Assembly (NCBI RefSeq): GCF_003095375.1
Contig: NZ_QEHR01000002.1
Coordinates: forward strand, 62,001 to 126,000
DNA: 64,000 nt
Source of the DNA: Marixanthomonas spongiae
GTDB lineage: Bacteria > Bacteroidota > Bacteroidia > Flavobacteriales > Flavobacteriaceae
Reading direction: 5' to 3'
Shown in pieces: positions 7,744-28,700 of the stretch. Position 1 is the stretch's first letter; each line of letters begins with the position of its first letter. The notes beneath the pieces are model-generated. The model was not told the origin of the DNA. It made no database searches and was given only the letters and a program-made list of their open reading frames with translations. The translations under genes and the position numbers were made by a program.

Positions 7744-7767
7744 GCGGTATGTCGTGGTTTTACCGGC

Positions 7768-7787
7768 ACATGTCACGAAATGTCTAA
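7768..7787 (+). promoter_or_regulatory. conserved 20-bp candidate operator (copy 1)
   Basis: ACATGTCACGAAATGTCTAA lies 25 bp after the stop of the TPR-LuxR gene and 131 bp before the FG-GAP gene. It contains two ATGTC half-sites exactly 10 bp apart, one DNA turn. The same 20 bases occur without change at 28681, before the second FG-GAP gene, although the surrounding DNA has diverged. A shorter relative (ATGTCAC) stands at 3435 in the first module. Confidence 0.55.
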
Positions 7788-7918
7788 CTTCCATTTAGGC
7801 ACGAAACAGTATCGATAGTTATATTTATCCAACAACTTTTAACCAGAAAGGAACCATCTTAACACTAGCGTTGGTTTTTCTTCTAAAGAATGTTTAACCC
7901 ATTTAAATTTTTATAATT

Positions 7919-9409
7919 ATGATACTAAAAAATACGATTAAAAACTTGATGGTGCTTTTATGCATTTTGGCAGGCTCAACGGCATTTGCACAATTTGAAG
8001 AAGTTACTAAAATCGTGAGTACCGACAGGGAAGGCCGTGCCGAATACGGTACGTCTGTGGCAATTCATGAAAATTTTGCGCTTGTAGGTGCATCCCGTGA
8101 GAATATTGCTTCGGGAGCGGCGTATGTGTATGCGAAAGATACTGACGGCAATTGGGATTTTATGCAAAAATTGTCAGCCACAGATTCCAATCAGGGCGCA
8201 GAATACGGTGGTGGCGCCGCTTTTTCCGATGATTATCTGGTAGTCGCAGCAGGTAGGGCCAATGTGGACGGTGTAATACGGGCCGGAGCGCTGTATGTTT
8301 ATGATTTGGACAACGATACATGGAGCTTTAACACCAAGTTATTTGCCTCGGATATGTCTGGGGATGCCAAATTAGGCATGAACCCAACTTCTATGAACGT
8401 TCATGAAAACACGATTATCGCAGGTGCTCCAGGGGAGAACGGCTGGACAGGCTCGGTCTATGTATTCACCAAAGAAGGCGGCACTTGGGCAGAACAACAA
8501 AAAATAATGGCCCCTAACCCTCAATCGCCCGATTCGTTTGGCATTGGCGTGGCCATATTTGGCGATCAAATGGCCATTGGGGCTAATCAAGCCGATGGCC
8601 TAAAAGGAGCTGTTTATATGTATTCCAACAATAATGGGGTATGGGAATACGATGAAACACTATCGGCCTCAGACGGTATGGAAGATGATTATTTCGGTTC
8701 TTCAGTAAGTTTGGTTGAAGATCAAATGATTATTGGTGCTTATGGTGTTGGCGGTGAGCAGGGGAAGGCGTATATATTCGAAAAGAACAGCAACGGGACC
8801 TGGGAAGAAGTTCAAATATTGGAAGGCGTTCCTTCAACTGAACCAACGCAATATGGATGGAGCACTGCTATTCAAGAAGATTATATTTTGGTAACGGCAC
8901 CCCATTTTTTTGGTTTTGAAGCAGGAGAAGTGTATTTGTATAAAAGAGAAGCTTCAGGAGCTTGGGTAGAAGATCAACTAATACAAGGTTCAGATACCGA
9001 AGGAGAGGATGCCTATGGTTGGAGTGTAGCCATGTATCAAAACCAAATGATAGCTGGTGCACCCCGTGAAGATCACGATGCCAATGGAGGCAATGAAATG
9101 GGCGATGCCGGATCGGCTTATATTTTTAAAGATCCTACGATGTTGGGCGTGGCTTCGCCTACCAATAGGGTGTCTGCTATAAGCGTTTATCCTAACCCGG
9201 TTGAAAACACCGTGCATATAGGAAGCCAGACAAATATGTTGGCTCATTTAAAAGTGTATAGTATAAGCGGAGTGCTGGTTCAGGAAGTCGATTCGTTAAC
9301 CACCAACAAGCTTACCTTAACTACATCAAGTTATAGCAGTGGAGTTTATTTTATGCATGTGACGTTGGAAGACGGGTCCGTGCATATTCAGAAAATTCTT
9401 AAAAACTAA
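7919..9409 (+). CDS. T9SS-exported FG-GAP repeat protein (copy 1)
   Basis: The protein has 496 residues, with a signal peptide (about 1-24, ending STAFAQ). Residues 30-400 hold about seven FG-GAP/integrin-alpha-like blades of the pattern YGxSVAI...LVGA...GAAYVY, W...QKL. The C-terminal ~85 residues form a T9SS sorting domain (VYPNPVENTVHIG ... GVYFMHVTLEDGSVHIQKILKN). The predicted fold is a calcium-binding-type beta-propeller displayed on or shed from the cell surface; an adhesive role is inferred. It follows a TPR-LuxR regulator and precedes a fibronectin protein by 33 bp, so the two exported proteins are probably co-transcribed. A close paralogue is at 28949. Confidence 0.85.
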   Translation: MILKNTIKNLMVLLCILAGSTAFAQFEEVTKIVSTDREGRAEYGTSVAIHENFALVGASRENIASGAAYVYAKDTDGNWDFMQKLSATDSNQGAEYGGGAAFSDDYLVVAAGRANVDGVIRAGALYVYDLDNDTWSFNTKLFASDMSGDAKLGMNPTSMNVHENTIIAGAPGENGWTGSVYVFTKEGGTWAEQQKIMAPNPQSPDSFGIGVAIFGDQMAIGANQADGLKGAVYMYSNNNGVWEYDETLSASDGMEDDYFGSSVSLVEDQMIIGAYGVGGEQGKAYIFEKNSNGTWEEVQILEGVPSTEPTQYGWSTAIQEDYILVTAPHFFGFEAGEVYLYKREASGAWVEDQLIQGSDTEGEDAYGWSVAMYQNQMIAGAPREDHDANGGNEMGDAGSAYIFKDPTMLGVASPTNRVSAISVYPNPVENTVHIGSQTNMLAHLKVYSISGVLVQEVDSLTTNKLTLTTSSYSSGVYFMHVTLEDGSVHIQKILKN

Positions 9410-9442
9410 CCAAGGGCACTAGCAGCCCATAAAATTAATTGA

Positions 9443-12400
9443 ATGAAAAATACAGTTTTAACGCTAGTTATGCTACTTGGCATAACGAGCTGGCAGATCT
9501 CTGCCCAATTTTCAGAAACTTTTGATACTGAAATCCCCAGAAGTTGGACGGTGATCGACCATGACGGCCAAGGTGGCACGTGGCAGCATCAAACAGCGCA
9601 TAGTTACCGGGGCGATGGGGGTGTTCGCATTAACTATGAAGACAACCCTCATGACGATTATTTAATTTCACCACAATTTACCGTCAATACAGGTGTTTCA
9701 GATCAAGTTTCTTTTTATGCGGGAGGTACAGGGCCCACCTTTCCGGAGACTTTCGATGTTAAATTATCTACCACCGGCACCACTCCGAGTGATTTTTCTG
9801 TTGTTTTGGCGTCTGAAACCACCATTGCCGATGTCGATGATTTAGGAGAATTTATACACTATACTTACAATCTTTCTGCCTATGACGGTCAGGCGGTACA
9901 CGTGGCCATCGTAGCCACGTCGCCACCTGCATTTCAATTGTATGTAGATGAGTTTTCGGTAGCGGCGTTGCCCAGCTGCCCAAAACCTTCCAATCTTGCA
10001 GTTACGACCATAGACCCAACCTCGGCAGCCATTAATTGGAATGCCGGTCACAACGAAACAAACTGGATGGTCACCTATGGCGAATTAGGATTCGACCCCG
10101 CAAGGGATGGGGAAACCCTATCGGTTTCAGGTACACCGGCAGCAACGTTAACTGCTTTGGTGCCCAATACTGCGTATGATATATACGTAAAAGCGATATG
10201 TGTTTCCGGAACCGATGAGAGTGAACTGGCAGGACCCTTACAGCTCGTCACCCCATGTATGGCAGCGCGAACACCTTTTAACGAAGGATTTGAAACCGGC
10301 TATACCGATGGTAATCAATTAAACGGGTGCTGGTCGCAAGAAATGATCACCAATACCTATTGGAAAACCAATTCTACGATTACCTATGACGATAGGGCAC
10401 CCCGTACAGGCGATTGGAACATTTATTTGCCCTATGGAAGTGAAACCTGGATGTTTTATCCGGTATCGGTACAAAACGGGGTAAATTATACGTTTACCTT
10501 ATATGCCAGACAAAGCAACTCATCGGGGGCTGAAATTTCAGTACGGTACGGAACCTCCAATACAGCAAGCGCTATGACAGAAGAAATAGTGCCCGTTACA
10601 CAAATAACCAGTGGTGATTATCAAGAAGTAACCAACAGTTTTACCGCGACGCGTTCAGAAACGATCTACATTGGCATTAAAGGAAAAATAAATGGAGGCT
10701 TTTTCCCCTTTTATATGTCCGTCGATGACATTTCTTTTACGGAGACCCCATCTTGTTTTAAACCAACCAATTTAAGGATCGATGCGGCCACTGCCACGTC
10801 GGCAGATATAAGCTGGACCCCAACAGGAACTGAAACCAATTGGTTGATAAAATACGGGGAACCAGGTTTTGATCCTGAAACAGCAGGAACCGAGTTGCAG
10901 GTAAGTACAAATCCCACCGGCACCATTACCGGGCTTGTTCCTGCACATATTTACAATGTTTATGTGCAAGCACAATGTGGAGGAAGTGATGGTGATAGCT
11001 TTTTTGCTGGTCCTATAACCTTAAAAACCCGTCCGGTAAACGACAACCTCTGTGATGCTACCCCCTTGATAGTAGATGAGGGATGTACTACCGGTAGTTT
11101 TTCCAATGTGGGGGCCACCCTGGAAGTTAATGAGCCTTTAGGGAGTTGCTTTGATGCTCCTGGTGATCAAACCGTATGGTTTACTTTTGAAGCGCCACCC
11201 AGTGGAAACGTGACCATAACCACCGATTTTGAAGGGGGTACCCTTTCAGATAGTGAATTGGCCATATATGAAGCACCCGATACCTGTCATGATTTTACGA
11301 CCATGGGCGCAGAGATAGGCTGTGATGAAGATGGGGGTACAACCGGAACAGGTTTTCTGTCCACGGTTACCTTAACCGATTTAATTCCCGGGTTTACCTA
11401 CTATGCCCAGGTAAACGGATTTATGAGTTTTGGTGACGGGACCTTTGAAGGAACTTTTTGTATAGAAGTACAGGATGATGGCCCTAGTTGTGCAGCCCCT
11501 ACCGATATAGTGGTTGATGCCATTACACCAACGTCGGCAGCCGTTAGCTGGACACCCGGCGATAGAGAGCCTGAATGGGAAATTTTGTACGGCCCCACCG
11601 GCTTTGACCCCGAAACAAGTGGTACATTTGTAATGGACAACGATGGTACATTAGGGGAAACCCTAACCAACTTAGTTCCAAATACCACCTATGATGTGTA
11701 TGTTCGCGCTATTTGCAACCCAATCGATGAGAGTTTTTTAAGTGATGTAGTAACCTTTACTACCTTAGCTGCCCCTCCGGTAAACGATGATGTTTGCAAT
11801 GCCCTTCCGCTTTTGGTGGATCAAGTTTGCAGTGGAAATTCCTACACCAATATCGGGGCAACAGCTCAGCGTGACGAAATCCAAGGATCCTGTTTAAACC
11901 CAATACCCAATGCCACTGTATGGTTTACATTTACGGCTCCGGCCAGTGGGAATGTAACGGTAACTACCAATATAGCACCCAGTGATTTGGCAGATACACA
12001 ACTAACGGTTTACGAAGCGCCAACAGATTGTGGCAATCTAACCACTATGGGAGCTGAGGTAGGTTGTAATGACGATGTAGATGCAGGGAATAACGAATAC
12101 CTATCTACAGTTCAGTTATCGGACCTTACCGCTGGTGCGACCTATTATGTTCAAGTTAATGGGAACAACGGCGAAGAAGGAAACTTTTGTATAGAAGTGC
12201 GGGATGACGGTATTGCGTGTCCCACTCCCAGTGATATAGCCGTGACCAACATTACACCTACGGCAGCTGACATAAGTTGGCGTGTAAATGGATCGGAAAC
12301 CGAATGGGAAGTTAGATATGGTCTATTAGGATTCGACCCTACTGCCGAAGGTTCCTTTAGGATAGATACCGATGGTGATCCGGGTATCACGTTAAATAAC

Positions 12401-12751
12401 TTAGACGCCAACACCCAATATGACGTGTATGTGCGTGCCTTATGCGATGGTACTGTTGAAAGTGATTTTGAAGGACCTTTTGCTTTTACCACTTTGGAGT
12501 TATCGGTCGCCCCGAATAGCTTTACGACCTTTGCCTATTACCCAAACCCATTTGCACATAAATTGACACTTACCGCACAGCAACCTATTGATAATGTAGT
12601 AATTTATAATGTGTTGGGGCAAGTTGTGAAAGAAACTACGGCCAGTACCGCGCACCTAAGCCTTAATACGGCATCGTGGCAATCAGGGCTCTACTTTATG
12701 GAAGTGACCATTGCTGGCCATGTAAAAAGCTTCCGTTTATTAAAAGAATAA
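9443..12751 (+). CDS. large T9SS-exported adhesin-like protein with fibronectin type III repeats
   Basis: The protein has 1102 residues and a signal peptide (about 1-21, ending ISAQ). Residues about 22-175 resemble the cleaved-adhesin/MAM-like beta-jelly roll (FSETFDTEIPRSWTVIDHDG), and a second such module follows at about 270-430. Four fibronectin type III domains begin with the shared phrase CxxPxxLxVxxITPTSAxISW. Two copies of a Cys-containing module start PVNDNLCDATPL and PVNDDVCNALPL. The C-terminus is a T9SS sorting domain (YYPNPFAHKLTL ... GLYFMEV). These modules are typical of surface adhesins or non-catalytic partners of secreted enzymes; no peptidase or glycosidase motif is visible. 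It is the last gene of the second regulator module and ends at a strong terminator. Confidence 0.85.
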   Translation: MKNTVLTLVMLLGITSWQISAQFSETFDTEIPRSWTVIDHDGQGGTWQHQTAHSYRGDGGVRINYEDNPHDDYLISPQFTVNTGVSDQVSFYAGGTGPTFPETFDVKLSTTGTTPSDFSVVLASETTIADVDDLGEFIHYTYNLSAYDGQAVHVAIVATSPPAFQLYVDEFSVAALPSCPKPSNLAVTTIDPTSAAINWNAGHNETNWMVTYGELGFDPARDGETLSVSGTPAATLTALVPNTAYDIYVKAICVSGTDESELAGPLQLVTPCMAARTPFNEGFETGYTDGNQLNGCWSQEMITNTYWKTNSTITYDDRAPRTGDWNIYLPYGSETWMFYPVSVQNGVNYTFTLYARQSNSSGAEISVRYGTSNTASAMTEEIVPVTQITSGDYQEVTNSFTATRSETIYIGIKGKINGGFFPFYMSVDDISFTETPSCFKPTNLRIDAATATSADISWTPTGTETNWLIKYGEPGFDPETAGTELQVSTNPTGTITGLVPAHIYNVYVQAQCGGSDGDSFFAGPITLKTRPVNDNLCDATPLIVDEGCTTGSFSNVGATLEVNEPLGSCFDAPGDQTVWFTFEAPPSGNVTITTDFEGGTLSDSELAIYEAPDTCHDFTTMGAEIGCDEDGGTTGTGFLSTVTLTDLIPGFTYYAQVNGFMSFGDGTFEGTFCIEVQDDGPSCAAPTDIVVDAITPTSAAVSWTPGDREPEWEILYGPTGFDPETSGTFVMDNDGTLGETLTNLVPNTTYDVYVRAICNPIDESFLSDVVTFTTLAAPPVNDDVCNALPLLVDQVCSGNSYTNIGATAQRDEIQGSCLNPIPNATVWFTFTAPASGNVTVTTNIAPSDLADTQLTVYEAPTDCGNLTTMGAEVGCNDDVDAGNNEYLSTVQLSDLTAGATYYVQVNGNNGEEGNFCIEVRDDGIACPTPSDIAVTNITPTAADISWRVNGSETEWEVRYGLLGFDPTAEGSFRIDTDGDPGITLNNLDANTQYDVYVRALCDGTVESDFEGPFAFTTLELSVAPNSFTTFAYYPNPFAHKLTLTAQQPIDNVVIYNVLGQVVKETTASTAHLSLNTASWQSGLYFMEVTIAGHVKSFRLLKE

Positions 12752-12794
12752 GTTTAGTTAGTAAGTTGGACTTTTTTGTCTTTATTTTAACAGT

Positions 12795-12825
12795 AAGACT
12801 GCTCGTTATGGGCAGTCTTTTTTTT
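12795..12825 (+). terminator. rho-independent terminator
   Basis: AAGACTGC (12795-12802) pairs with GCAGTCTT (12812-12819), and a run of T continues to about 12825. It ends the fibronectin gene. Confidence 0.88.
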
Positions 12826-12954
12826 GGTACCGATTTCGCTCTAAATGATTAGGGTTCAGAAAAAAGAATCATTACTATTTTTAGAAGGAGTCCAACATAA
12901 TACCCCGGCCTACAGCCCGTATCTTACCGACTATTCGAAACCTCTGAGTGAGTT

Positions 12955-13158
12955 GTGGTCAACTATATTTTGCAGATCGTGAGCAGGGACGAAGTAGCTA
13001 TTGAACAATTGAGCTATGAGATTCGCAACGATTGCACCCTGACCCAAACCGATGTGTATGCGATACTGGAAACCCTGGGAAGGAAAATGAAAAGTCATTT
13101 AGAAGACGGCAAAACTGAAACCTTGGTTTCGGGGGGATTGGCCGTGCAACAAAAATGA
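12955..13158 (+). pseudogene. truncated HU-HIG type DNA-binding protein
   Basis: The 67 codons (GTG start, possibly not a real start) match the N-terminal half of the intact HU-like gene at 33449: NYILQ(I/A)VSR(D/G)EV..EQLSYEI and CTLTQTDVxAxLxxLGRKMKxHLEDGKT are shared. After EDGKT the reading diverges and stops, so the DNA-binding beta-arm and C-terminal helix are missing. There is an in-frame stop just upstream of the GTG, so the normal N-terminus is lost too. It is a broken relic of the family. Confidence 0.75.
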
Positions 13159-13251
13159 TTATTCGGGAAATGGGTTACGGGTAACGGGGTTAACAAGAAA
13201 GACTCTTGCTAGCAAACTTATTTTAAGCATAGGCTGTTTGAGCCATGCAGC

Positions 13252-13839
13252 TTAGTGTGTAGCACGAATCTCATACTGTATGGGTTTAAAACTACCTCCG
13301 TTACTATCTTCGGCCGAACAGGCGGTAAGCCCCACTATTACATCCATTAAAGCGATGAACTCTATATAATCACCTGCTTTACTTGTAGGGGGATCAACCG
13401 ATAGTTGACCGTTTGAGGCAACTTGTACATTCATAAAAATATTAAAAGCGGTGGGGATGTCGTCGGGTTGTATTTTAAAAGGGGCGAGATGGGTATATAA
13501 ATTTTCAAAACAGCTGGGGTGGTACCCTTTATGGCCATACATTATTGAAAACGTTTCCGGGCTGCAAGGCGCCAATAAAAAATCGTTGCGTCCGTTTGTA
13601 TCTTCCGTGATTTCCATCATTTTATTGCTCCGGTTGCTCCACAAGTAGTGACCTTTGGTAATAAAAATTGTTTCTTCAAAATCCAAAGTTTTTCCAGATG
13701 ATATTTTTTCACGGATATCCTGTGCATTAAAAAGCACGAGATCGCTTACCTGTTGCCCAAGCGGATCGATGACCCTTAGTTTTTCCCCTTTTTTTAATTT
13801 GAAAGCTGTTCCTGATTGCTTGGGAATTTCGTTTACCAT
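13252..13839 (-). CDS. DUF1989 / urea carboxylase-associated family protein
   Basis: The 195-residue protein fits the DUF1989 family throughout (LKKGEKLRVIDPLGQQVSDL, YGHKGYHPSCFENL, FNIFMNVQVA, DYIEF.AL.DV..GLTACSAED). Members are found beside urea carboxylase, guanidine- or aminomethyl-degrading enzymes and in glycine-cleavage-like folds, but their reaction is not firmly known. Conserved Cys/His residues (PC near 131, YGHKGYHPSC near 140-150, ACS near 177) suggest metal binding. It lies 37 bp downstream of the GntA-like gene on the same strand, so the two likely form an operon and may act on the same nitrogenous substrate. Confidence 0.8.
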   Translation of the reverse strand: MVNEIPKQSGTAFKLKKGEKLRVIDPLGQQVSDLVLFNAQDIREKISSGKTLDFEETIFITKGHYLWSNRSNKMMEITEDTNGRNDFLLAPCSPETFSIMYGHKGYHPSCFENLYTHLAPFKIQPDDIPTAFNIFMNVQVASNGQLSVDPPTSKAGDYIEFIALMDVIVGLTACSAEDSNGGSFKPIQYEIRATH

Positions 13840-13875
13840 TTTTTTTTGTGTATGTACGTTTGATAATATAACTAT

Positions 13876-14565
13876 TTATGAGGTATGATGAAAAGGGCAT
13901 TTCCATTCTTTTTCGGTTTTCCGTCCGCTATATTGTCTGGCTTCACTACTGGAACCAAAATCTTCCAACATGGGGTTTATGGAACCCTGTAGGGCTTTAT
14001 CACGTTCGCGAATGCGTTGTTTTACCGTGTCATAACTCCCCATTTTCCGTAATTTTTCAAATTGCCAATGCAGGTTAAAAGCAAGGGTTACGTACGGGGT
14101 TTGACGAGCTATCCTCGAACTGTTGGGATGCATCCCTACAATATAAAAAGCTTTTCCGGCTATGCTGAAACTGAACGTATCGTCTTCAGGATTATTTGAA
14201 ACCGTTTCGTCCCAAGCTTTTGTATCACTTTCGTGAATGTGTTGCAGTTGTTCCCATAATTGCTTTTCGAACGCCGTTTCAGATGTAAAATGAGCGGTTG
14301 GGAACACCGCTAAAAACGTCACAAAATCATTGCTTTCCCAATCGTAACCATCCACATACGCTTGTATATCGGCCACTAAGTTTCGGGCTGTTTTTTTTGT
14401 TCCGAACGAGTTGTAGCTATGCAGTTCCACAGCACCCATTTTAAAAACAGACTGCGCCATTATGCAGGGATGATCGTGTGCTACAATAAATTGATGATAC
14501 TCTTTTTCTAATTGGCTGATCGTGGGAACACTGGCTGTGCTCAGTGCGGTTGGTTCTTTTTTCAT
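13876..14565 (-). CDS. YqcI/YcgG family protein, GntA-like haem N-oxygenase homologue
   Basis: The ATG at 14565 is preferred over an upstream GTG, giving 229 residues (MKKEPTAL...). The sequence follows the YqcI/YcgG family: an N-terminal HPCIMAQSVFK motif, FVTFLAVFP, a central FSIAGKAFYIVGMHP motif, RQTPYVTLAFNLHWQFEKLR, and a C-terminal WKCPFHH. Members of this family include GntA, described as the haem-dependent N-hydroxylase acting on a guanidino group in guanitoxin biosynthesis, and RohS of azomycin biosynthesis, so N-oxygenation of a guanidine or amine is the best functional guess. None of the other toxin genes are present here. It is the first gene of a probable two-gene operon with DUF1989. 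Confidence 0.75.
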   Translation of the reverse strand: MKKEPTALSTASVPTISQLEKEYHQFIVAHDHPCIMAQSVFKMGAVELHSYNSFGTKKTARNLVADIQAYVDGYDWESNDFVTFLAVFPTAHFTSETAFEKQLWEQLQHIHESDTKAWDETVSNNPEDDTFSFSIAGKAFYIVGMHPNSSRIARQTPYVTLAFNLHWQFEKLRKMGSYDTVKQRIRERDKALQGSINPMLEDFGSSSEARQYSGRKTEKEWKCPFHHTS

Positions 14566-14668
14566 AGACCTGTGCTTTTCTTTAAAGATAGAAAAACCAC
14601 CCACGGGCAGTGTGTAGATTAAGAAACGTTTATGCGTATTTTAATGAAAATTAACAAGATAGAGGTTT

Positions 14669-14938
14669 CTAACGATTTCCATTCTTTCGATATCGAATCA
14701 TAACATACAGCATACTTAAATTGAAAAGGAAAGAAACCCCATTGGTGAGTATGATGGCCAAATCGTGTTTAAGGATACCATACACCACCCATAATCCTAC
14801 CCCCAGCATTAAAATAACGAACATGGTAGGCGATACATCGTTTACTCTTTTGGTTTTCCATGCTTTAAGGAGTTGTGGTACCACTGCCGAAGTGGTGCAC
14901 AGTCCAGCCAATAAACCTAATACCGTTACCGTGTCCAT
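14669..14938 (-). CDS. SemiSWEET-type small sugar transporter
   Basis: The 89-residue protein has three transmembrane helices and the PQ-loop motif (TTSAVVPQLLKAWKTK) in helix 1, with SPTMFVILMLGVGLWVVYG in helix 2 and NGVSFLFNLSMLYVMI in helix 3. This is the length and pattern of bacterial SemiSWEETs, which dimerise to form an alternating-access sugar pore. The substrate cannot be read from sequence. It is a single gene between the YqcI-like gene and a divergently transcribed small protein gene. Confidence 0.85.
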   Translation of the reverse strand: MDTVTVLGLLAGLCTTSAVVPQLLKAWKTKRVNDVSPTMFVILMLGVGLWVVYGILKHDLAIILTNGVSFLFNLSMLYVMIRYRKNGNR

Positions 14939-15100
14939 AAAGGGAAAATTAGATACGTGATCGTATTTTGACGGAAATTAATACAAAATGGGGAAAAGGC
15001 ACGATTTTTAATAGAGTGTTAGTATTGAATTAACATAAGGTATGAAGATTTTAGGGTACCTTAAAGGTCGAAAAAATGTAACAGTTAAAATTAAACCATC

Positions 15101-15349
15101 ATGGCCAAGAATCACGGAAATCAGATTAAAAACGACGAACAGTACGAAGAACTTCGAGAAGAAGGGATGAGCAAAGAAAAAGCGGCCCGTATTGCCAATA
15201 CCGAAAATTCTGGTAAAAAAGGAGGGCACGCGAAAAAATACGAGAAACGCACCAAAGAAGAACTGGAAGACAAAGCTAAGGAAATAGGCATAGAGGGGTA
15301 TAGCTCTATGGATAAAGACGAATTGATCAAAGCCTTACGGAATCATTAA
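15101..15349 (+). CDS. small DUF7218/Rho-N-like protein
   Basis: The 82-residue, highly charged protein begins MAKNHGNQIKNDEQYEELRE, then MSKEKAARIANT, a Gly/Lys linker and a C-terminal Rho termination factor N-like SAP fold (RTKEELEDKAKEIGIEGYSSMDKDELIKALRNH, split here by its GYSSM turn). Small proteins of this form are common in bacteria and are often stress-induced; nucleic-acid binding is plausible for the Rho-N part but not proved. Preceding sequence contains an A-rich start region but no clear Shine-Dalgarno. Confidence 0.75.
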   Translation: MAKNHGNQIKNDEQYEELREEGMSKEKAARIANTENSGKKGGHAKKYEKRTKEELEDKAKEIGIEGYSSMDKDELIKALRNH

Positions 15350-15463
15350 AAGTAGGACCAGGAATATAAAATGACATCTTGTTAGGATAGGCTTCAGGTA
15401 TGAAACATATAAGATTGCCTTCACCCGCCATACCCCTTTTTCAGAAGAACCGCCTACAGTGCA

Positions 15464-16114: not shown

Positions 16115-16266
16115 TGGTGTGAAAAATTATGGATGTGTACGTGTTGTTTTAGGTATTGAAAGTATTTATAAATATGCTAAATTGCAGTTAACCAGCTGTT
16201 AAAAAACTGGTAATGTTATATGTAGGTTACGGGTTTGAGCGTATCTTTCTTTAAAAATTCTCATTC

Positions 16267-16407: not shown

Positions 16408-16436
16408 AGTACCACCTTTTTTAACCGAATGTACCT

Positions 16437-19477: not shown

Positions 19478-19517
19478 AAACGTGCGACTTAGTTTTTAAT
19501 CGATCTTAAAAATAAAA

Positions 19518-20413: not shown

Positions 20414-20417
20414 GTTA

Positions 20418-22883
20418 TTAGCTATGCAAACAGTCGATTGCGCTTTCCATATCTATTTTTTCTGAAAGCACAGGTTCAAATAGATCGCCCATTTTTTGTA
20501 AGCGCTCTGGCAGGGTTTTAATCGTGTGGGCGTTCATGATGAGGCCGGGTTTTACTTCGTCCCATAACAACGGTGTGGATACACAGGCGTCGGGAACCGG
20601 ACGTACACAGTAGGGCGAAGCGATGGTTTGTCCGCGCCTGTTTTGCAAACAATCAATATATATTTTCCCATTGCGTTTTGTTTTGGTACGCTCCATAGTC
20701 GCCAAGGTAGGCACGCGTTCCATAACAAAATAACCTAACAATTTTGCAAAATCCCGCGCTTCAGAATAGGTATAATGCCTCTTTCCTAAAGGAACATAAA
20801 TATGAAGTCCTTTGCTGCCCGATGTTTTAACGTATCCGTTTATTTTTGCGCTGTCCAGTACTGTTTTTACAGCTTGGGCTACTTCTATTACCTCTTCAAA
20901 CGTATTGGTGGGCGAGGGGTCTAAATCGAGAATGGTATAATCTGGATGGTCAATAGTGGTGATTTGAGAATGCCAAGGGTTTAATTCGATACAGCCCAAA
21001 TTAGCCATATAAAGCAAAGTAGCTTCATTTTGACACACCAAATAAGCAATATCCTTATTGGCAGATTTAGAATGGTAGTGTACCGTTTCCATCCAATCAG
21101 GAAGGTGCTCGGTGTCCTTTTGGTAAAACGATTCGCCTTTAATGCCATTAGGATGCCGGTGGAGGTTTTGTGGGCGGTTTTTTAAATACGGGATGATGGT
21201 TTCGGAAATTTGAAGGTAGTAATCAATTAGATCGTATTTTGTGTATCCCATCTTAGGCCAATATATTTTCTCAAGATTGGAAATGGGAACCGATATGCCA
21301 TTCACCTCCAATGTATTGGCGTTTGACGTGGCCGTTACATATTTCTGCTGTTTGGCCGGTTGATCGTTTGTTTCATTAGGAAAATGATTTTTGCCTTTCC
21401 CATCGGTGATCCCTTCTATTTCACTTTTGTCGAGGCGTAACCGTTTAAATACGGGATGCCTTAACAGACCGTTTTTAGTATATTCGGTAAAGGAGACTTC
21501 GCAATATATCGTTGGGGCGACCCATTGCGGGGTGCGTCCTTTTAAATTTATTTTTTCAGAAAAGGGGGATTCCTCTACTGTAAACCGCTTTAAAATGTCC
21601 AGGATTTCCTGTTGTTTTTTAGTGGAGTAGCCCGTACCACAATTGCCAACGTAGGTGAGCGTGTCTTCTTTTAAAGTCCCTAACAATAAAGAGCCGAACA
21701 GGGAATCTTTTTTGGTGATGGTAAACCCGCAGATTAAAAATTCATCGGTATGGGTATGCTTTATTTTTAACCATTGCTCGGTTCGGTAATTGGGGGTGTA
21801 GGTGCTTTCTTTTTGTTTCGCCATGACGCCTTCCAGGCCTTCGTCTAAGGCTTTATTGTATAAGGTGATGCCCATCCCATCGATGTGGTCGCAGTAATAG
21901 GTGTGTTCTAGGCTCTCCAGTAAATCGGGTAACAGGCTTTTTCGGTCCAACAGGGTTAAGGACGTTGTGGCATGGCCGTTTAAATAAAGAAGGTCAAACA
22001 CATAATACCGTAAGGTGCCGTTTGTTTGGTGTGGCGTGTAATTTTGGAGTTTGGAAAAATCGGGTTTGCCGTTTGCGTCCACTACTACCAGTTCCCCATC
22101 CAGAATACAGTCATGCGGTATTTCCTGAAGCTCTTGGGCAATCTCTTGAAATTTGGTGTTATAAACAATGCCATTTCGCGAATAAATTTCCACTTTCCCT
22201 TTGTTGATGTTTGAAAGTAAGCGGTATCCGTCCCATTTTAGTTCAAAAATATAGCCCGGGTCGTTGAAAATGGAGCTTCCTGTTGTGGCGAGCATGGGTT
22301 TTATATGGGTGTTGCGTGAAATGGTGGTTTCTCTTTTTTTGGAGGCTGCTTGTTTTACCTGGTCTGGGGAACGATAGGCTTCGGCATCATAAATAAGATG
22401 GGTCGCAAAAGGATCGTTTTTCTTTATTAGTAACCACTGGTTTTGTTTGGAGCCGCGATTTGTTTTCACCAATGCAAACTGTCCTTTTAGTTTGGAACCT
22501 TTCAACGTTAATTTTAAATCACCTTTTTCATATTGTTCCTCAAATGGCGTGTCTGTATATAAGGTAAAGGTGCCGGCATCCCAGATGGACATTATTCCAG
22601 CGCCATAATTACCTTTGGGGATGGTGCCTTCAAAAAAAAGATAGGAAACGGGGTGGTCTTCGGTATGGATGGCCAATCGCTTATCGTCTGGGTTCATGGA
22701 AGGTCCCTTGGGAATCGCCCAACTTTTTAGCACTCCCTTGTGCTCCAACCTTAGATCGTAATGCAAATGGCTGGCCGCATGCCGTTGCACTACAAACCGG
22801 TTGCGGTGGTCCTTGTTAATTACGCCTTTGGGTTCGTTTGTTTTGTTAAAATCCCTTTTGGCCTTATACGTTTCCAATGCCAT
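20418..22883 (-). CDS. ligD: DNA ligase D (NHEJ ligase/polymerase/phosphoesterase)
   Basis: The 821-residue protein has the three LigD modules in the order phosphoesterase, ligase, polymerase. Residues about 20-150 form the 3'-phosphoesterase (FVVQRHAASHLHYDLRLE, HTEDHPVSYLFFEG). Residues about 195-490 are the ATP-dependent ligase, with the adenylated lysine in ELKWDGYRLL (about Lys215), LDGELVV and KIKH. Residues about 530-815 are the archaeo-eukaryotic primase-type polymerase (LEKIYWPKMGYTKYDLI, catalytic LDLDP, KTSGSKGLHIYVPL). All expected active-site motifs are present. The enzyme repairs double-strand breaks with Ku, whose gene lies directly upstream with a one-base gap, so the two are co-transcribed. 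Confidence 0.95.
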   Translation of the reverse strand: MALETYKAKRDFNKTNEPKGVINKDHRNRFVVQRHAASHLHYDLRLEHKGVLKSWAIPKGPSMNPDDKRLAIHTEDHPVSYLFFEGTIPKGNYGAGIMSIWDAGTFTLYTDTPFEEQYEKGDLKLTLKGSKLKGQFALVKTNRGSKQNQWLLIKKNDPFATHLIYDAEAYRSPDQVKQAASKKRETTISRNTHIKPMLATTGSSIFNDPGYIFELKWDGYRLLSNINKGKVEIYSRNGIVYNTKFQEIAQELQEIPHDCILDGELVVVDANGKPDFSKLQNYTPHQTNGTLRYYVFDLLYLNGHATTSLTLLDRKSLLPDLLESLEHTYYCDHIDGMGITLYNKALDEGLEGVMAKQKESTYTPNYRTEQWLKIKHTHTDEFLICGFTITKKDSLFGSLLLGTLKEDTLTYVGNCGTGYSTKKQQEILDILKRFTVEESPFSEKINLKGRTPQWVAPTIYCEVSFTEYTKNGLLRHPVFKRLRLDKSEIEGITDGKGKNHFPNETNDQPAKQQKYVTATSNANTLEVNGISVPISNLEKIYWPKMGYTKYDLIDYYLQISETIIPYLKNRPQNLHRHPNGIKGESFYQKDTEHLPDWMETVHYHSKSANKDIAYLVCQNEATLLYMANLGCIELNPWHSQITTIDHPDYTILDLDPSPTNTFEEVIEVAQAVKTVLDSAKINGYVKTSGSKGLHIYVPLGKRHYTYSEARDFAKLLGYFVMERVPTLATMERTKTKRNGKIYIDCLQNRRGQTIASPYCVRPVPDACVSTPLLWDEVKPGLIMNAHTIKTLPERLQKMGDLFEPVLSEKIDMESAIDCLHS

Positions 22884-22884
22884 G

Positions 22885-23661
22885 TTAGGAGGCTTTTGAT
22901 TTCTTTTTGGCTTCTAAGCTCGCTTTTAACTTGGCCATTAAGTCTGTGGCTTTCGTGGGTTCAGATTTGTGTTCTTTCGGTTTTACTTTTTTACCTGATT
23001 TTTTGCGCTCAATGATTTTCATTAATTGGTTGTTGTACACGTCTTTATATTTTTCCAGTTTGAACTCGGCCGTATAATTATCAATGAGCGACAAGGCCAT
23101 ATCGATTTCTTTTTTGGAAACGTTGCTCTTAGGTATTTTTAATTGGGAAGGGTCCCTTATTTCATCGGCAAATCGGATTACGTGGAGCACCAATGCGTTT
23201 TCATACACACCAATTAGGCTTAGGTGTTCTTTTTGGCGCATGACAAAGGTTGCGATGCCCAGTTTTTTGGTTTTCTTTAAAGCGTCGCGCAACAAGGTGT
23301 ACGATTTTTCCCCATCTTTTTGAGGTTGCAGGAAATAGGGTTTTTTAAACAATAGGTCGGCTACCTCTTTTTCGGCTACAAATTCTTCAATATCGATGGT
23401 CTTGCTTTTTTTCATATTGGCAATCTCAAAATCTTCTTTTTCCAACACCACGTATGCGTCGTCCATTTTATATCCCTTTACAATATCTTTCCAGGCTACT
23501 TCTTTCCCGGTATCTTCATTAATTCGTTTGTACCTGATGCGTGCGTTGTCGTGACGATCGAGCATATCTAAATCTATTTTCCGATCTTCAGAAGCTGAAA
23601 ATAATTTAATGGGAATTGAAACCAATCCAAAGCTTACCGAACCATTCCATATCGATCTCAT
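22885..23661 (-). CDS. ku: Ku DNA end-binding protein
   Basis: The 258-residue protein begins MRSIWNGSVSFGLVSIPIKLFSA, the hallmark of bacterial Ku, and continues with the beta-barrel core including KGYKMDDAYVVLEKEDFE and the KKPYFLQP motif. The C-terminal Lys-rich tail (from about 220: KKSGKKVKPKEHKSEPTKATDL) is the usual basic extension that contacts DNA or LigD. Ku dimerises as a ring on DNA ends and recruits LigD. It is the first gene of the Ku-LigD operon. Confidence 0.95.
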   Translation of the reverse strand: MRSIWNGSVSFGLVSIPIKLFSASEDRKIDLDMLDRHDNARIRYKRINEDTGKEVAWKDIVKGYKMDDAYVVLEKEDFEIANMKKSKTIDIEEFVAEKEVADLLFKKPYFLQPQKDGEKSYTLLRDALKKTKKLGIATFVMRQKEHLSLIGVYENALVLHVIRFADEIRDPSQLKIPKSNVSKKEIDMALSLIDNYTAEFKLEKYKDVYNNQLMKIIERKKSGKKVKPKEHKSEPTKATDLMAKLKASLEAKKKSKAS

Positions 23662-23804
23662 ACTGTTTTATTTAAGCGTGAACTTAAAAATAAGCAGGAA
23701 AAATGGGAATGGGTCTTAATTAAAAACTAAAATACGGGCAGTAGGAGGTAAAAAAGAGAACAGTTAGCGGCGGATTATTGTCGCGGACGGGTTTCCGGAA
23801 ACCT

Positions 23805-23848
23805 AAAAAACCATCCACTTTCGTATATGAACCAGAACGTGTGGATGG
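23805..23848 (-). terminator. probable terminator of the copper-protein gene
   Basis: On the minus strand CCATCCAC (23848-23841) pairs with GTGGATGG (23818-23811), and six T follow (23810-23805). The loop is long, 22 bases, which lowers certainty. It lies after the Cys-rich protein gene and before Ku. Confidence 0.6.
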
Positions 23849-23898
23849 TATTATTTGTGCATACGGATACGCATAAAAGGTTTAATTTAAGTTATTGC

Positions 23899-24222
23899 TT
23901 AGTTTGCTAAATAATCTTGGCAAGCCTCTGCACATTTTCGGCAGGCTGCGGCACAATCTTGACAATGTTGTGCTTGGTGTTGTTCGCATTCGTCGGCACA
24001 GGCATTGCATAACGTTTGGCAATATTCCACCAAGCCGCGTACGTCTTTATAATTGGCAGCGAGTAATTGGGCGGTTGTGTTGCACACTGCAGCACAGGCT
24101 CTATCTGTTCTTATGCACGCGATCATTTTTTGAAGGTTGTCTTCGTCCAAACACGCGTCGGCACAATAGGTGCACTGAATTGCGCAGTGTTGGAGGGTTT
24201 CAATTAAATTTTGATTTTTCAT
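23899..24222 (-). CDS. Cys-rich four-helix copper-binding protein (DUF326)
   Basis: The 107-residue protein has 16 cysteines, mainly in CxxxC/CxxC pairs on predicted helices (CAIQCTYCADAC, CAAVC, CQTLCNACADEC, CQDCAAACRKCAEAC). This is the pattern of the DUF326/copper storage protein (Csp) family, four-helix bundles whose core cysteines hold many Cu(I) ions. There is no signal peptide, so the cytosolic type is predicted. Copper storage or detoxification follows from the family. It is a single gene with a terminator behind it. Confidence 0.88.
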   Translation of the reverse strand: MKNQNLIETLQHCAIQCTYCADACLDEDNLQKMIACIRTDRACAAVCNTTAQLLAANYKDVRGLVEYCQTLCNACADECEQHQAQHCQDCAAACRKCAEACQDYLAN

Positions 24223-24281
24223 AGTTTTTGTTTTAGTTATTGATTTTAAATTATTGGCTTTCTATTTCACATGGATCCTTT

Positions 24282-25277
24282 TTAGTCGCCAGTAGGTGTC
24301 TGGGCTTTTTTATATATGAGCCCTTCTTTTTTTAGTGCTGCCCAAAAATCGTTGGGGATATCGGTTTTCCAGGCTCGTACATTATCCTTTATCTGCTCCG
24401 TTTTACTGGCACCGGGAATGATGGCCGCAAATTCGTCTGCCGCCAACACAAAATGCAGGGCTGCGGTAATGCTATCAATTCCGTAATCTTGGGCAATGGT
24501 TGCGATGCGATCGCGTTTTTCTTTCATGCCCTTGGGAATATGTTGTTTATAATTGTACCTATTGCGTCCTGCAATAAAACCAGAGTTATATCCTGCGCCC
24601 GAAACCAATTTCACCCCGTTTTTACGAACGGCAGGTAACAGACGGTCCACTGCCTCTTCGTGTTCCAAGATAGAATATTGGGTAGCCGAAAGGCATATAT
24701 CTGGGTCTGCGGCTTCCATACAATCTAGAATAGGTTTTATTTTGTTTACCCCCATGCCCCACGCTTTGATAATTCCTTGGGAACGGTAATCGGAAAGTAC
24801 CTTGAACGCCCCTTTTTTTGCGATTTCCATATGGTACGGGTACCGATCTCCCACTTGGTCTTCTGAAAGGTCATGCACATATACAATATCGATACGGTCT
24901 AATCCAGTTCGTTCCAGGCTTTCCTCAATGGAGCGTTTTGTAGCATCTGCCGAATAATCGTGGGTATAGTCAAAGTTCATTGGATTTTTCCACATGGTAG
25001 GCGGCACCTGGTCTGGATTTACTTTATGGAATAATCTGCCTATTTTGGTGGAGAAGACGTAATCTTCATTAGGTTTTTGGCTCAAAAAAGCACCAAATCT
25101 ACGTTCGCTTTTGGTAAGGCCATACCACGGAGAGGTATCGTAATACCGAATGCCCAACTCCCAAGCCTTTTCCAACAGGCGTGCTGCTTGGTCGTCGGTT
25201 ATATTTTCAAAAGCGGTGCCAATGGCTACCCCGCCTAATCCTAATTGATGTTCTTTTTGCAGGGCTGGTTTTTCCAT
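24282..25277 (-). CDS. aldo/keto reductase
   Basis: The 331-residue protein matches the aldo/keto reductase TIM barrel: GLGGVAIGTAF, then YYDTSPWYGLTKSERRFG with the catalytic Asp and Tyr, STKIG with the catalytic Lys, VHDL with the catalytic His position, and a C-terminal IIPGASKTEQIKDNV binding the NADP phosphate. The overall pattern is closest to the subgroup containing L-fucose/D-threo-aldose dehydrogenase and pyridoxal 4-dehydrogenase. The substrate is therefore probably a sugar or aldehyde. It is a single gene, 59 bp before the copper-protein gene on the same strand. Confidence 0.87.
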   Translation of the reverse strand: MEKPALQKEHQLGLGGVAIGTAFENITDDQAARLLEKAWELGIRYYDTSPWYGLTKSERRFGAFLSQKPNEDYVFSTKIGRLFHKVNPDQVPPTMWKNPMNFDYTHDYSADATKRSIEESLERTGLDRIDIVYVHDLSEDQVGDRYPYHMEIAKKGAFKVLSDYRSQGIIKAWGMGVNKIKPILDCMEAADPDICLSATQYSILEHEEAVDRLLPAVRKNGVKLVSGAGYNSGFIAGRNRYNYKQHIPKGMKEKRDRIATIAQDYGIDSITAALHFVLAADEFAAIIPGASKTEQIKDNVRAWKTDIPNDFWAALKKEGLIYKKAQTPTGD

Positions 25278-25515
25278 ATCGTGTTTTTTATCAAGTGTCC
25301 ATTTCTACATGGGCGTGTGATTTTTACTTAAATATAAATAAGTCAAAAAGGGTAGTCCGTTAACGAAAGGTTATTTTTTTAGCCCTGTTGGGGGTTTCCT
25401 AGACTTTTATTTCGCTGTGCTGCAAGTCGATTACATAACTGTCAATTGAAAATAGTGGGGTTTTATGCGCTTGATGTAGGTTTTAGGGAAACATTAAGAG
25501 AAGTTCAAAAATCAC

Positions 25516-26853
25516 ATGCTTAACTTTAGGGAAAACTTTTTTAATTCTGGAATGATGAAAAATGCACTGCTGGCTTCCCTTCAGGATCAAATATCGAATT
25601 TCGCCGATATAGCGGACCTAACCTCTTTAATGACATCTTTAAAAGATAAAAAAGTTGTGATGTTGGGTGAAGCTTCACACGGAACCCACGAATATTACCT
25701 ATGGAGAGCAAAGATTTCAAAAGTCTTGATCGAAGAATATGGATTTAATTTTGTTGCCGTGGAAGGAGACTGGCCACCTTGCTATCACGTAAACCGTCAT
25801 GTTAAAAATTACGAAGATGCTCCCACAGCTACCTATAAAGCGTTGCAGGCATTTGAGCGGTGGCCGTCGTGGATGTGGGCCAATTGGGAAGTTTTTGAAT
25901 GGACGCAATGGCTCAGAAAATACAATAAGGACGTAAAGCCTGAAAACCGCATTGGTTGGTACGGATTGGATGTGTATAGCTTATGGGAATCCTTGGAAGC
26001 TATTATGGGGTATCTACAAAAGGAAGATCCCGATGCATTCCAGACCGCAAAGGAAGTCATGCGTTGTTTTGAACCCTACCGTGATAAAGATGGAGGGTCG
26101 TATGCCTTTTCTACACGTTTGGTTCCCGATGGTTGTCAACGGGAGGTTAACAAGATGCTGGTGGAGATACGTAAGAAATTTGCACGTTATGAGGATGATG
26201 ATGAAGCCGCTTTTAGTACCGAACAAAATGCGATCGTTGCCAAAAATGCAGAAGCATATTACCGGGTGATGGCCACTGGTGACGAAGCTACGTGGAACAT
26301 TAGGGATGGTCATATGATGGATACCTTAACCAGGTTGCTCGATTTTCACGGTCCGGATGCAAAAGGGATTGTGTGGGCGCATAATACCCATGTGGGGGAT
26401 GCATCGTTTACCGATATGGCAGACCAAGGACTATACAATATTGGCGAACTGGCCAGAAAACAGTTTGGAAAAGAACAGGTAGCCCTTATTGGTTTTGGTT
26501 CGTACCAAGGTAGTGTCCTCGCAGGACGGGAATGGGGCGCAAAAGTACAGAAGATGGAAGTGCCTACCGCATCGCAGGACAGTTGGGAATCCATGTGTGC
26601 TGCGCTGGGAGATCAATTTTACCTCAATTTTGAAAAAATGAGCGCAGACCCCGAATGGCAAACTAAAATCCCCCATCGGGCCATTGGGGTGGTTTATAGG
26701 CCGGAATATGAGCAATATGGTAATTACGTGCCGACCGTGCTTCCCAAAAGATATGATGGCTTTCTATTTTTTAAGGAAACCAAAGCCCTGCATGCCATGG
26801 ATAGTAGTGTAGCAGCCAATAAAACACCCGAAACCTATCCCTTTGGCGTTTAA
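25516..26853 (+). CDS. erythromycin esterase-like protein
   Basis: The reading from 25516 has 445 residues, but the real start may be the ATG at 25552 or 25555, which removes an unusual Phe/Asn-rich leader. The protein carries the erythromycin-esterase/EreA-like signature: VVMLGEASHGTHEYYLWRAKISKVLIEEYGFNFVAVEGDWP, later WAHNTHVGDAS and the glycine-rich IGFGSYQGSVLAG. The conserved His of GEASHGTHE and the Glu of VEGDWP are present. Many members are not macrolide esterases and their substrates are unknown, so antibiotic resistance should not be assumed. It is a single gene. Confidence 0.82.
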   Translation: MLNFRENFFNSGMMKNALLASLQDQISNFADIADLTSLMTSLKDKKVVMLGEASHGTHEYYLWRAKISKVLIEEYGFNFVAVEGDWPPCYHVNRHVKNYEDAPTATYKALQAFERWPSWMWANWEVFEWTQWLRKYNKDVKPENRIGWYGLDVYSLWESLEAIMGYLQKEDPDAFQTAKEVMRCFEPYRDKDGGSYAFSTRLVPDGCQREVNKMLVEIRKKFARYEDDDEAAFSTEQNAIVAKNAEAYYRVMATGDEATWNIRDGHMMDTLTRLLDFHGPDAKGIVWAHNTHVGDASFTDMADQGLYNIGELARKQFGKEQVALIGFGSYQGSVLAGREWGAKVQKMEVPTASQDSWESMCAALGDQFYLNFEKMSADPEWQTKIPHRAIGVVYRPEYEQYGNYVPTVLPKRYDGFLFFKETKALHAMDSSVAANKTPETYPFGV

Positions 26854-27066
26854 TGCATATCAGGGGTGATCGCCATACAATTTCAGTATGGGTTTGCCCG
26901 ATTCGTAATTTAGACGGGCTCAGTATGACACATGAATAGAATAAACACTAATTATATAATTTAAAGGATAATGGTTACTTTAGGGCTTGCGAAGAGGGAA
27001 GTTAGAACTCGTTATATTTTCGAGTGAGTGGCCCATTATCGTAAAGAATAATTGAAATAAAAAGGT

Positions 27067-28113
27067 ATGCTTACAGGTAGAAAAATACTAGTATATGGAG
27101 TAGGGGCTGTTGTAGGAGCCTATTTCCTGTTTTTAGGGTTGATTGAAGCAAAAGTCTTTTTAGCCCCCTTGGTCACGGCTATACTGTTGGCACTCCTTTT
27201 ATTGCCTCTCTCGCAGTTTATGGAACGAAAGGGACTAAGCTGTGGGTTGACTTCGTTGCTCAATACCCTCTTGTTGTTGCTTATAACTTTCGGGTTCTTA
27301 ACCTTGCTTTCTTTTCAAATTAAGAATTTTGCTGATGACTGGCCTCAGATTAAAGAGTCGTTACAGCCCACCATTGAGCAAGTCACCCATACGATAACTG
27401 CTAATACACCTTTGGATAAGGAAAGTATGGCTATAAACGATGGGCTATTTAAAGATTCCAAAACCGTTGCTGACAAAGCAGGTACTATAATTGGTGCCGT
27501 AATGGGGTATATGGGGAATTTTCTGCTCACGTTTATTTACGTATTCTTTTTGTTGCACTATAGGGAAAGGTTCAAAAAATGTATGTTGCATTTTTTCCCT
27601 AAAGAAAGGAGAAAAAATGTCCATGACATTGTTGTAAAATCGGCACAAGTAGTACCGAAATACCTGCTGGGAAGGTTAATGTTAATTGGGTTTTTATCCG
27701 TGCTGTATGCTGTTGGTCTAGGCATTTCCGGAGTGGACAATTTTATTTTGATCAGTGTCTTGGCAGCGGTTTTTTCGTTGGTACCCTATATTGGCAATAT
27801 CGTTGGCGTGGCGATGGCCATTATTTTGGGATATATAGGAACGGGTGACACCGTAATATTGATAGGGATTATCGTCACTTTTTCGGTGGCACAATTTATC
27901 GAAAGTTATATTTTAGAACCCTATGTGGTAGGAAATAAAGTGGATGTGCACCCTTTTATAGTGATTTTGGCCGTCGTGGTGGGAAATCTTGTATGGGGCT
28001 TAATTGGGATGGTATTGGCCATTCCCATTGTGGCCATTTTAGCAGTTTTAATGCTGCATATCCCGTTGCTTAAACCGCTGGGGGTTTTGTTCAGTAACGA
28101 AGACTTTGAATAA
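27067..28113 (+). CDS. AI-2E family transporter (PerM/YdiK-like)
   Basis: The 348-residue protein has seven or eight transmembrane helices and the family pattern: two N-terminal helices, LLLLPLSQFMERKGLSCGLTSLLNTLLLLL, a soluble segment at about 95-145, then YMGNFLLTFIYVFFLLHYRERF and the strongly conserved PYIGNIVGVAMAIILGYI plus ESYILEPYVVGNKVDVHPFIVILAVVVGNLVWGLIGMVLAIPI. Relatives include the AI-2 exporter TqsA and Na+/H+ antiporter-like proteins; the substrate here is unknown. It is a single gene. Confidence 0.87.
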   Translation: MLTGRKILVYGVGAVVGAYFLFLGLIEAKVFLAPLVTAILLALLLLPLSQFMERKGLSCGLTSLLNTLLLLLITFGFLTLLSFQIKNFADDWPQIKESLQPTIEQVTHTITANTPLDKESMAINDGLFKDSKTVADKAGTIIGAVMGYMGNFLLTFIYVFFLLHYRERFKKCMLHFFPKERRKNVHDIVVKSAQVVPKYLLGRLMLIGFLSVLYAVGLGISGVDNFILISVLAAVFSLVPYIGNIVGVAMAIILGYIGTGDTVILIGIIVTFSVAQFIESYILEPYVVGNKVDVHPFIVILAVVVGNLVWGLIGMVLAIPIVAILAVLMLHIPLLKPLGVLFSNEDFE

Positions 28114-28269
28114 AAACCTTCTTAAAAATAGAAGTGGTTTTGTCTTTGCGAAAGGCAAGGTTTTATGTGGTTTAGCAAAGCATACATTTCATATTGGCCG
28201 TCCTGCTTAATTTCTTGAACGTATGGTAGTTTTGAATGCCGCCAAGAATACTAAAAAAGTTAAAAGTGT

Positions 28270-28655
28270 GTGGTCGGTTGCTGCAAGAAAAGCAGCGACA
28301 ACAAAAGGAATGCATGATGTTGTTTGAAAAAGAGCGACTAAAAACCTTTATCTCGCCATGCTAAAATAGCAAATGATGCCCGGCTCAAAACTCAAATAAA
28401 CGATTTAACACACATCTTAAAAATGACGCCCAGTGGGATGGTTTTTTCACTCATCTTGAAGAATTAAATCGCGGTTTTCTTACGATGTTCATGGCTAAAC
28501 ACAAAAAACTTACTTCTAACGATATTCAATTTTTAACGTTACTATATATGAATTTAAGTTATAAAAAAATACCATCGTTTTTAAACATTACTTCTCGACC
28601 TTGCCAAAAACAAAAAGAATACATTTCTATGTATGCCTATCTTTCAGCGATTTAA
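28270..28655 (+). pseudogene. decayed third copy of the TPR-LuxR regulator
   Basis: The stretch matches the C-terminal ~150 residues of the regulator at 6091: first RLLQEKQRQQKE and LFEKERLK, then in another frame DARLKTQINDL, QWDGFFTHLEELNRGF, MAKHKKLTSNDIQFLT, YMNLSYKKIPSFLNIT and a final YAYLSAI before the stop. Stops and frame changes interrupt it near 28350-28420, and the conserved helix-turn-helix residues CRKRKERI have become PCQKQKEYI. The N-terminal signal, TPR and membrane parts are not recognisable. It stands directly before the second FG-GAP gene, as its intact relative does at 6091-7919, so the whole module was duplicated and the regulator lost. Confidence 0.85.
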
Positions 28656-28680
28656 TCGAATTTGTCTCCTTTTGTTATGT

Positions 28681-28700
28681 ACATGTCACGAAATGTCTAA
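28681..28700 (+). promoter_or_regulatory. conserved 20-bp candidate operator (copy 2)
   Basis: ACATGTCACGAAATGTCTAA is identical to 7768-7787 and stands 26 bp after the pseudogene stop, 248 bp before the FG-GAP gene. It has survived while the regulator next to it decayed, which suggests it is still bound, probably by a paralogous regulator. Confidence 0.55.

Follow-up and report, generated by a model that had tools for sequence, protein, structure and literature searches.

We found that the 20-bp element lying unchanged in front of two FG-GAP genes of the window (the whole 64,000-nucleotide stretch of Marixanthomonas spongiae DNA analysed here) is the downstream, promoter-proximal half of a larger element that begins approximately 20 bp earlier. 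Judged by its sequence, the 20-mer appears to be the better-kept half of a promoter switch located, in several flavobacteria, between the gene of a membrane-bound regulator and that of an exported protein. The whole element is quite probably the operator through which adjoining TPR-LuxR regulators activate the genes of proteins exported by the type IX secretion system (T9SS), hereafter called cargo genes.

The 20-mer ACATGTCACGAAATGTCTAA occurs on the forward strand at 7768–7787 (copy A) and 28681–28700 (copy B) with 0 mismatches at both places, exactly as in the original prediction, and no further copy with up to 3 mismatches was found in the window (0 in 100 shuffles). It starts 25 and 26 nt past the last base of stop codons at 7741–7743 and 28653–28655, respectively; these distances had been given correctly, but the second of the two presumed regulators is a decayed remnant. 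The surrounding DNA has indeed diverged: the 20-mer is identical at 20 of 20 positions, whereas the 20 bases on its 5′ side align with 12 identities, 5 mismatches and 6 gaps, and the 3′ coding stretches of the two regulator copies with 215 identities, 74 mismatches and 37 gaps. The layout of the larger element is box 1 (TGTCAC-like), then, after 20–22 bp, box 2 (TGTCAC), and 10 bp further a half-site TGTC/TTTC. In copy A, box 1 (TGTCGT, 7750–7755, + strand) lies 21 bp before box 2 (TGTCAC, 7771–7776, +), and half-site 4 (TGTC) follows at 7781–7784 (+), the 20-mer comprising box 2, half-site 4 and flanks. Copy B has the same arrangement on the + strand with box 1 (TGTCTC) at 28663–28668, box 2 (TGTCAC) at 28684–28689 and half-site 4 (TGTC) at 28694–28697. 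The weaker ATGTCAC site noticed earlier at 3435–3441 belongs to a third copy of the two-box element, copy V, located on the + strand behind the first TPR-LuxR gene, in which box 1 is AGTCAC (3415–3420), box 2 is TGTCAC (3436–3441) and half-site 4 is a degenerate TTTA (3446–3449). Box 1 is thus imperfect in all three window copies. The original prediction had a unit of two direct ATGTC half-sites; the full unit consists of up to four half-sites in two boxes.

Genome-wide searches, among them those proposed with the original prediction, returned little besides these sites. Within the 3,406,541-base genome, the 20-mer was found at 2 sites and nowhere else with up to 3 mismatches (a backwards control pattern had 1 match), ATGTC-N5-ATGTC had exactly 2 matches (backwards control, 1), and GTCAC-N15-17-TGTCAC detected 2 of the four module sites described below and no other (backwards control, 2). 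A sequence-only profile, R1, built from 28 sequences, matched the window copies (C2:65415, C2:69749 and C2:90662) and a site behind a further TPR-LuxR gene, C14:11018, at E ≤ 0.0016; note that all four were training sequences, and their recovery is by construction. The four copies of the element in the genome are the three in the window and one on another contig, and all of them stand after a TPR-LuxR regulator gene or its decayed remnant and before a T9SS-cargo gene. No fifth site was found among the 150 of 1196 candidates scored, indicating that there is no general regulon to be seen at this depth. A random scatter of the motif, which would have spoken against the original prediction, was likewise not observed, as the module sites are followed only by a profile match at E = 5.

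Profile R1 was also scanned against 20 relatives, where 150 of about 640–3,100 first-look candidates were scored per genome. At least 29 matches were obtained at E ≤ 0.018, of which 20 were training sites and nine were held out. Six of the held-out matches lie directly behind a regulator (one of them frameshifted, in G259), and the other three, all in G103, lie elsewhere. Among the latter, the C2 site is located 161 bp before the gene of an exported 1219-aa protein with a T9SS tail, and the C6 site 161 bp before that of a protein of similar N-terminus that is cut by the contig end. The third (G103:C12:169507; L226, ~3507–3560) has all four half-sites, and TAGGTTTG stands exactly 49 bp from its box 2; no clear downstream target gene was found on that strand, and this element possibly serves a small RNA or a short ORF. 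Some weak matches (E above 0.02) are true module sites, and the element present in G363 was missed by the profile. The weak matches in L224, L230–L232 and L294–L296 were discarded, none being behind a regulator and 6 of the 7 being inside ORFs. In an order-wide run with stricter filters and 16 candidates scored per genome, at least 3 of 395 genomes were positive. An exact 15-mer scan of the whole collection returned at least 119 stretches, presumably mostly chance matches to so short a word. Four were examined: L041, L070 and L077 fell inside unrelated ORFs and were rejected, and in L026 (Aequorivita viscosa, Flavobacteriaceae) the element stands between a regulator and a BNR-like gene.

We searched 299 family genomes with the 6091 protein (E ≤ 1e-60, at most 4 candidates scored per genome) to compare the element among relatives, and obtained at least 28 regulator copies in 18 genomes. 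The motif set comprised 29 segments, namely the DNA behind 28 regulators and behind the remnant. Two divergent TPR-LuxR homologs of the own genome, C1:401222 and C2:301206, were excluded because they lack the element, and the own-genome homologs C12:33752 and C1:196162 were outside the analysis. G011 was left out of alignment A1, and G259b was aligned by hand because its box 1 sits in the coding end. Exact TGTC words behind the regulators cluster near 6, 27 and 37 nt after the stop, and their leading spacings are 10 bp (13 times), 21 bp (6 times) and 22 bp (10 times), with none at 11 bp. The motif fit was 28.5 bits per sequence compared with a mean of 10.3 bits (maximum, 12.0) in 30 shuffled sets. 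In its fullest form, seen in G201, G122, G025, G363 and G482, the element has four half-sites at about 0, 10, 22 and 32. When 48 rows were registered on GTC at box 2 and box 1 was taken as the best of four spacings, box 1 agreed with TGTCAC in at least 4 of its 6 positions in 47 rows, at 20–22 bp from box 2; G011 lacks box 1. The element is present in orthologous modules of other species, other genera and a second family; absence from other species would have spoken against the original prediction. An attempt to tie a GTCC-type box 2 to one residue of the recognition helix was dropped, since exceptions exist. We also observed three regulator-element-cargo modules within 17 kb of one locus (L170, G033:C4:254700-272000), of which two share a strand and the third has the opposite orientation. 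In addition, the divergent TPR-LuxR gene at C1:401222 (L135, G000:C1:401222-402544), which has no element behind it, lies 285 bp before the gene of a 549-aa protein whose C-terminus resembles a T9SS tail by eye; therefore, other regulator classes may have operators of their own.

The window carries two intact regulator genes on the + strand, at 1754–3409 (551 aa; the ORF may begin at TTG 1604) and at 6091–7743 (550 aa), both encoding TPR-transmembrane-LuxR-like proteins, and the latter product is the putative binder of copies A and B. The remnant of the second module's regulator gene (28275–28655, +) corresponds to approximately the last third of the gene and is interrupted by stops, a frame change and deletions. 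By eye, it is nearer to the regulator of G001 than to the 6091 regulator, and the N-terminus of the second FG-GAP protein likewise resembles that of G001; the decayed module may be the ortholog of the G001 one. Directly before the remnant, the region 25516–28113 contains the genes of an erythromycin-esterase-like protein (Pfam Erythro_esteras) and an AI-2E-type transporter.

Each regulator has TPR repeats, one internal hydrophobic stretch and, at its C-terminus, a helix-turn-helix (HTH) that looks LuxR-like. Pfam GerE matched the 1604 protein at 20.9 bits, below its gathering score of 23.5, and Sigma70_r4_2 matched the 6091 protein at 23.2 bits, below its gathering score of 25.7. A single-sequence search of the HTH against the PDB gave 7 weak matches (E 0.14–0.97), 6 of which are response regulators such as VraR, and a search for similar solved HTH structures with profile A4 gave no match at E 0.01. 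NCBIfam NF053779 (BT3442_fam) matched the C-terminal region of the two regulators at 32.6 and 35.0 bits and NF053520 (FimS) their TPR part at 40.8 and 26.5 bits; membership in either family was rejected, as these scores are far under the curated cut-offs of 940 and 600 bits, respectively. A hydropathy maximum of at least 1.58 was located 187–223 residues from the C-terminus in 48 of 48 regulators, placing one hydrophobic helix between the outer and DNA-binding parts as in transmembrane one-component regulators, and we take the TPR part before this helix to be periplasmic. The recognition helix reads RKR[KR]ER in 28 of 28 regulator copies, usually as CRKRKER. In a phylum-wide HTH search of 395 genomes, matches at E ≤ 1e-15 were confined to families f1 and f5; helices were read for a minority of the weaker matches, G737 (family f17), for example, not being among them.

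Occurrence of the element follows the helix class of the adjoining regulator, as direct binding would predict. Held-out regulators were gathered by searching the HTH region in 296 genomes of the order, giving a profile set of 13 RKRKER regulators (11 of them from five genomes of a different family, f5) and 7 homologs with other helices; G427:C2:442574, which has an internal TAG, was left out. The earlier-trained profile gave scores of 17 or higher for 11 of these RKRKER regulators, in the case of L274 with the register shifted, and lower ones for L267 (6.0), whose second box is by eye the variant AGTCC, and L271 (−2.1). The seven other-helix homologs scored from −9.7 to −2.8. A simple pattern, two GTC 20–23 nt apart, at least one of them TGTC, lying within 60 nt of the stop, which was written only after the held-out rows had been seen, was present behind 15 of 18 distinct held-out RKRKER regulators including those of the second family (L265 was dropped as a duplicate of L264). 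It was present in 1 of 210 other ORFs, 1.2% of shuffles and 0 of 10 other-HTH ORFs, a class that includes a chance regular-expression match (L134, 1288). Among the training regulators, 20 of 28 carried the pattern and 8 did not. Of the held-out regulators without the pattern, L225 carries ATCAC as its box 1 variant, L276 has an element that extends past the 60-nt limit, and only L271 (G510) is genuinely devoid of the element. The Fisher test gave p = 6e-20 for the simple pattern, a value that is indicative only and overstates independence because the held-out rows are related.

The distance from the element to the predicted promoter is nearly fixed. On the consensus given in PMC9723704, −7 boxes are predicted on the + strand at 7820–7827 (TATATTTA, FG-GAP gene) and 28733–28740 (TACATTTA, second FG-GAP gene), both 49 bp after box 2, and a −7-like box at 3484–3491 (AATATTTG, VPS10-like gene), 48 bp after box 2; none of the three is a perfect TAnnTTTG. 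Both FG-GAP genes keep the 49 bp though their leaders differ, the ATG lying 148 and 265 bp after box 2. TAnnTTT was found 48–49 bp from box 2 in 17 of 48 rows compared with a background of 4.8% per seven offsets downstream, and 4 or more of its five fixed letters in 40 of 48 rows compared with 12.5% per two offsets, a good −7 box at this distance missing in 8 of 48 rows. In 24 of 48 rows TTTG stands at 52–53 bp, and in most rows the TAnnTTTG −7 box of flavobacterial sigma-A promoters was recognizable. This box is placed at −12 to −5 in F. psychrophilum in PMC9723704, and box 2 would therefore be near −61, half-site 4 at about −51 and box 1 at about −83, with transcription of the copy A promoter starting near 7832 and that of the copy V and copy B promoters near 3496 and 28745. 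Half-sites at about −83 to −48 would be in a typical activator position, suggesting activation.

The putative targets, all on the + strand, encode a VPS10/BNR protein (3517–5829, copy V), an FG-GAP protein (7919–9409, copy A) and a second FG-GAP protein (28949–30445, copy B), each with a T9SS sorting tail. The first FG-GAP gene is followed after 33 bp, in the same orientation, by a gene for a 1102-aa fn3/cleaved-adhesin protein with a T9SS tail (9443–12751), and the copy A promoter probably drives both genes as one transcript. Por_Secre_tail was detected in 46 of 46 downstream proteins scanned, consistent with T9SS cargo, and 34 of these proteins match VPS10 and 7 match FG-GAP_2. The scan left out 2 of the 48 rows, G004a (VPS10-type gene ending early, at 491 aa) and L026 (cut by the locus end), and signal peptides were judged by eye only. 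One module, at 645504 in L225 (G004:C12), retains its regulator and element, and its VPS10-type cargo stops at 491 aa with the sorting tail missing. In a tree of the 48 regulators, the six FG-GAP-linked ones form one supported clade nested among the VPS10-linked ones, and cargo type needs 3 changes on this quick tree, which has some long branches; the operator has therefore outlasted the exchange of cargo.

G510 provides a case in which the element and the regulator are separated. Its regulator, on contig C44, is without an element, and the element lies on a different contig (C10:192732, profile E 0.001). There, box 2 is separated by 83 bp from the ATG of the gene for a 661-aa Ig-like protein with a T9SS tail, and TAATTTTA stands exactly 49 bp from box 2. 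This cargo is a threefold repeat of, and 49–53% identical to, the 292-aa cargo of G482, which is linked to a regulator. The element therefore belongs to the cargo promoter and probably acts in trans. Furthermore, element and cargo have twice survived decay of the regulator, in the second FG-GAP module of the window and beside the frameshifted G259 regulator, a pattern that would fit control by a paralog in trans. Because the regulator of the second module has decayed, we infer that the 6091–7743 regulator probably serves both FG-GAP promoters.

In the proposed mechanism, an envelope signal would lead the regulator to activate the adjoining T9SS-exported gene (VPS10/BNR, FG-GAP or Ig-like) through an operator of directly repeated half-sites, TGTCAC at 0, TGTC/TTT at +10, TGTCAC at +21/22 and TGTC/TTTC at +31/32. 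A single face of the helix could accommodate two regulator dimers or four monomers, and the promoter downstream of the operator would be of the TAnnTTTG type, its −7 box usually beginning 48–49 bp after box 2. It is also conceivable, though not very likely, that the modules are self-contained and that their membrane-spanning TPR regulator monitors T9SS export on the periplasmic side, perhaps through sorting tails on their way out, and tunes cargo transcription accordingly; that VPS10, FG-GAP and Ig-like cargo were exchanged while regulator and operator were kept agrees better with recognition of a trait common to all cargo, such as the sorting tail, than with recognition of one cargo body. Two dimers beside a promoter can also repress, and the regulator might bind the element and hold the cargo gene off until released by a signal. 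We regard this as rather unlikely, its odds overlapping with those of activation: the half-sites lie upstream of the −33/−7 region and, in most rows, keep a fixed distance to the −7 box, as activator sites typically do, and the element has been kept after regulator decay (28681–28700; G259), where it would be needless for a lost repressor.

Binding of the repeats by another protein, such as a PhoB-type response regulator, with the TPR-LuxR protein acting elsewhere, appears improbable to us. In the Pho box, CTGTCAT is repeated directly every 11 bp, and this unit resembles the half-site here; the box distance of 21/22 bp is also near two 11-bp Pho units. On the other hand, exact TGTC pairs are spaced 13 times at 10 bp and the 11-bp period is absent among them, and occurrence tracks the helix class of the adjoining regulator. 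It is hardly credible that the two 20-mers lack a regulatory role and are identical only because the module was duplicated or underwent gene conversion, or because they form a transcript feature at the end of the regulator gene. The two modules are paralogous and flanking similarity is common to both, as such a relic would have it, but the same element recurs in several genera and a second family although the neighbours on either side have diverged, its repeats are direct rather than inverted, and in G510 it stays with the cargo gene away from the regulator. Activation by the TPR-LuxR regulators is therefore the reading that we prefer.

The element bears on how flavobacteria choose which T9SS-exported proteins to make. 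In PMC10951265, T9SS regulation is described as known only for P. gingivalis, and information on two-component control of the T9SS in F. johnsoniae as lacking; PMC9723704 reports ECF-type promoters of T9SS components in F. psychrophilum. No published description of the element or of the regulator-cargo pairing was found among the papers listed in a search that most subscription papers lay outside. Described here are a defined cis-element, a nearly fixed promoter geometry and a candidate class of dedicated regulators in two families of one order. With a defined element and a candidate regulator class, control of T9SS cargo becomes directly testable, and G510 together with the two cases of decayed regulators offers natural tests of trans action and of loss.

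The C-terminal HTH of these regulators weakly resembles that of the NarL/LuxR type (e.g., VraR); unlike that class, they show no receiver domain but have a transmembrane helix, an N-terminal TPR part and the helix CRKRKER. Transmembrane one-component regulators of the ToxR/CadC type unite a DNA-binding domain, a single membrane helix and an outer part in one protein, an arrangement common to them and the regulators described here. However, the present regulators carry a LuxR-like DNA-binding domain at the C-terminus and have TPR repeats as their outer part; Pfam shows only TPR and the C-terminal HTH, with no match for an N-terminal winged helix of the OmpR type or any other winged-helix family. 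The element shares with the Pho box direct repeats of a TGTCA-containing unit, but differs in its 10-bp period and in having no own-genome site away from the modules among the 150 of 1196 candidates scored. Finally, the type IX system is regulated by PorX/PorY-SigP (PMC10951265), in which a two-component system and an ECF sigma factor act on the genes of the secretion machine, whereas the system described here would pair a one-component regulator with a neighbouring cargo gene whose −7 box is of the standard type.
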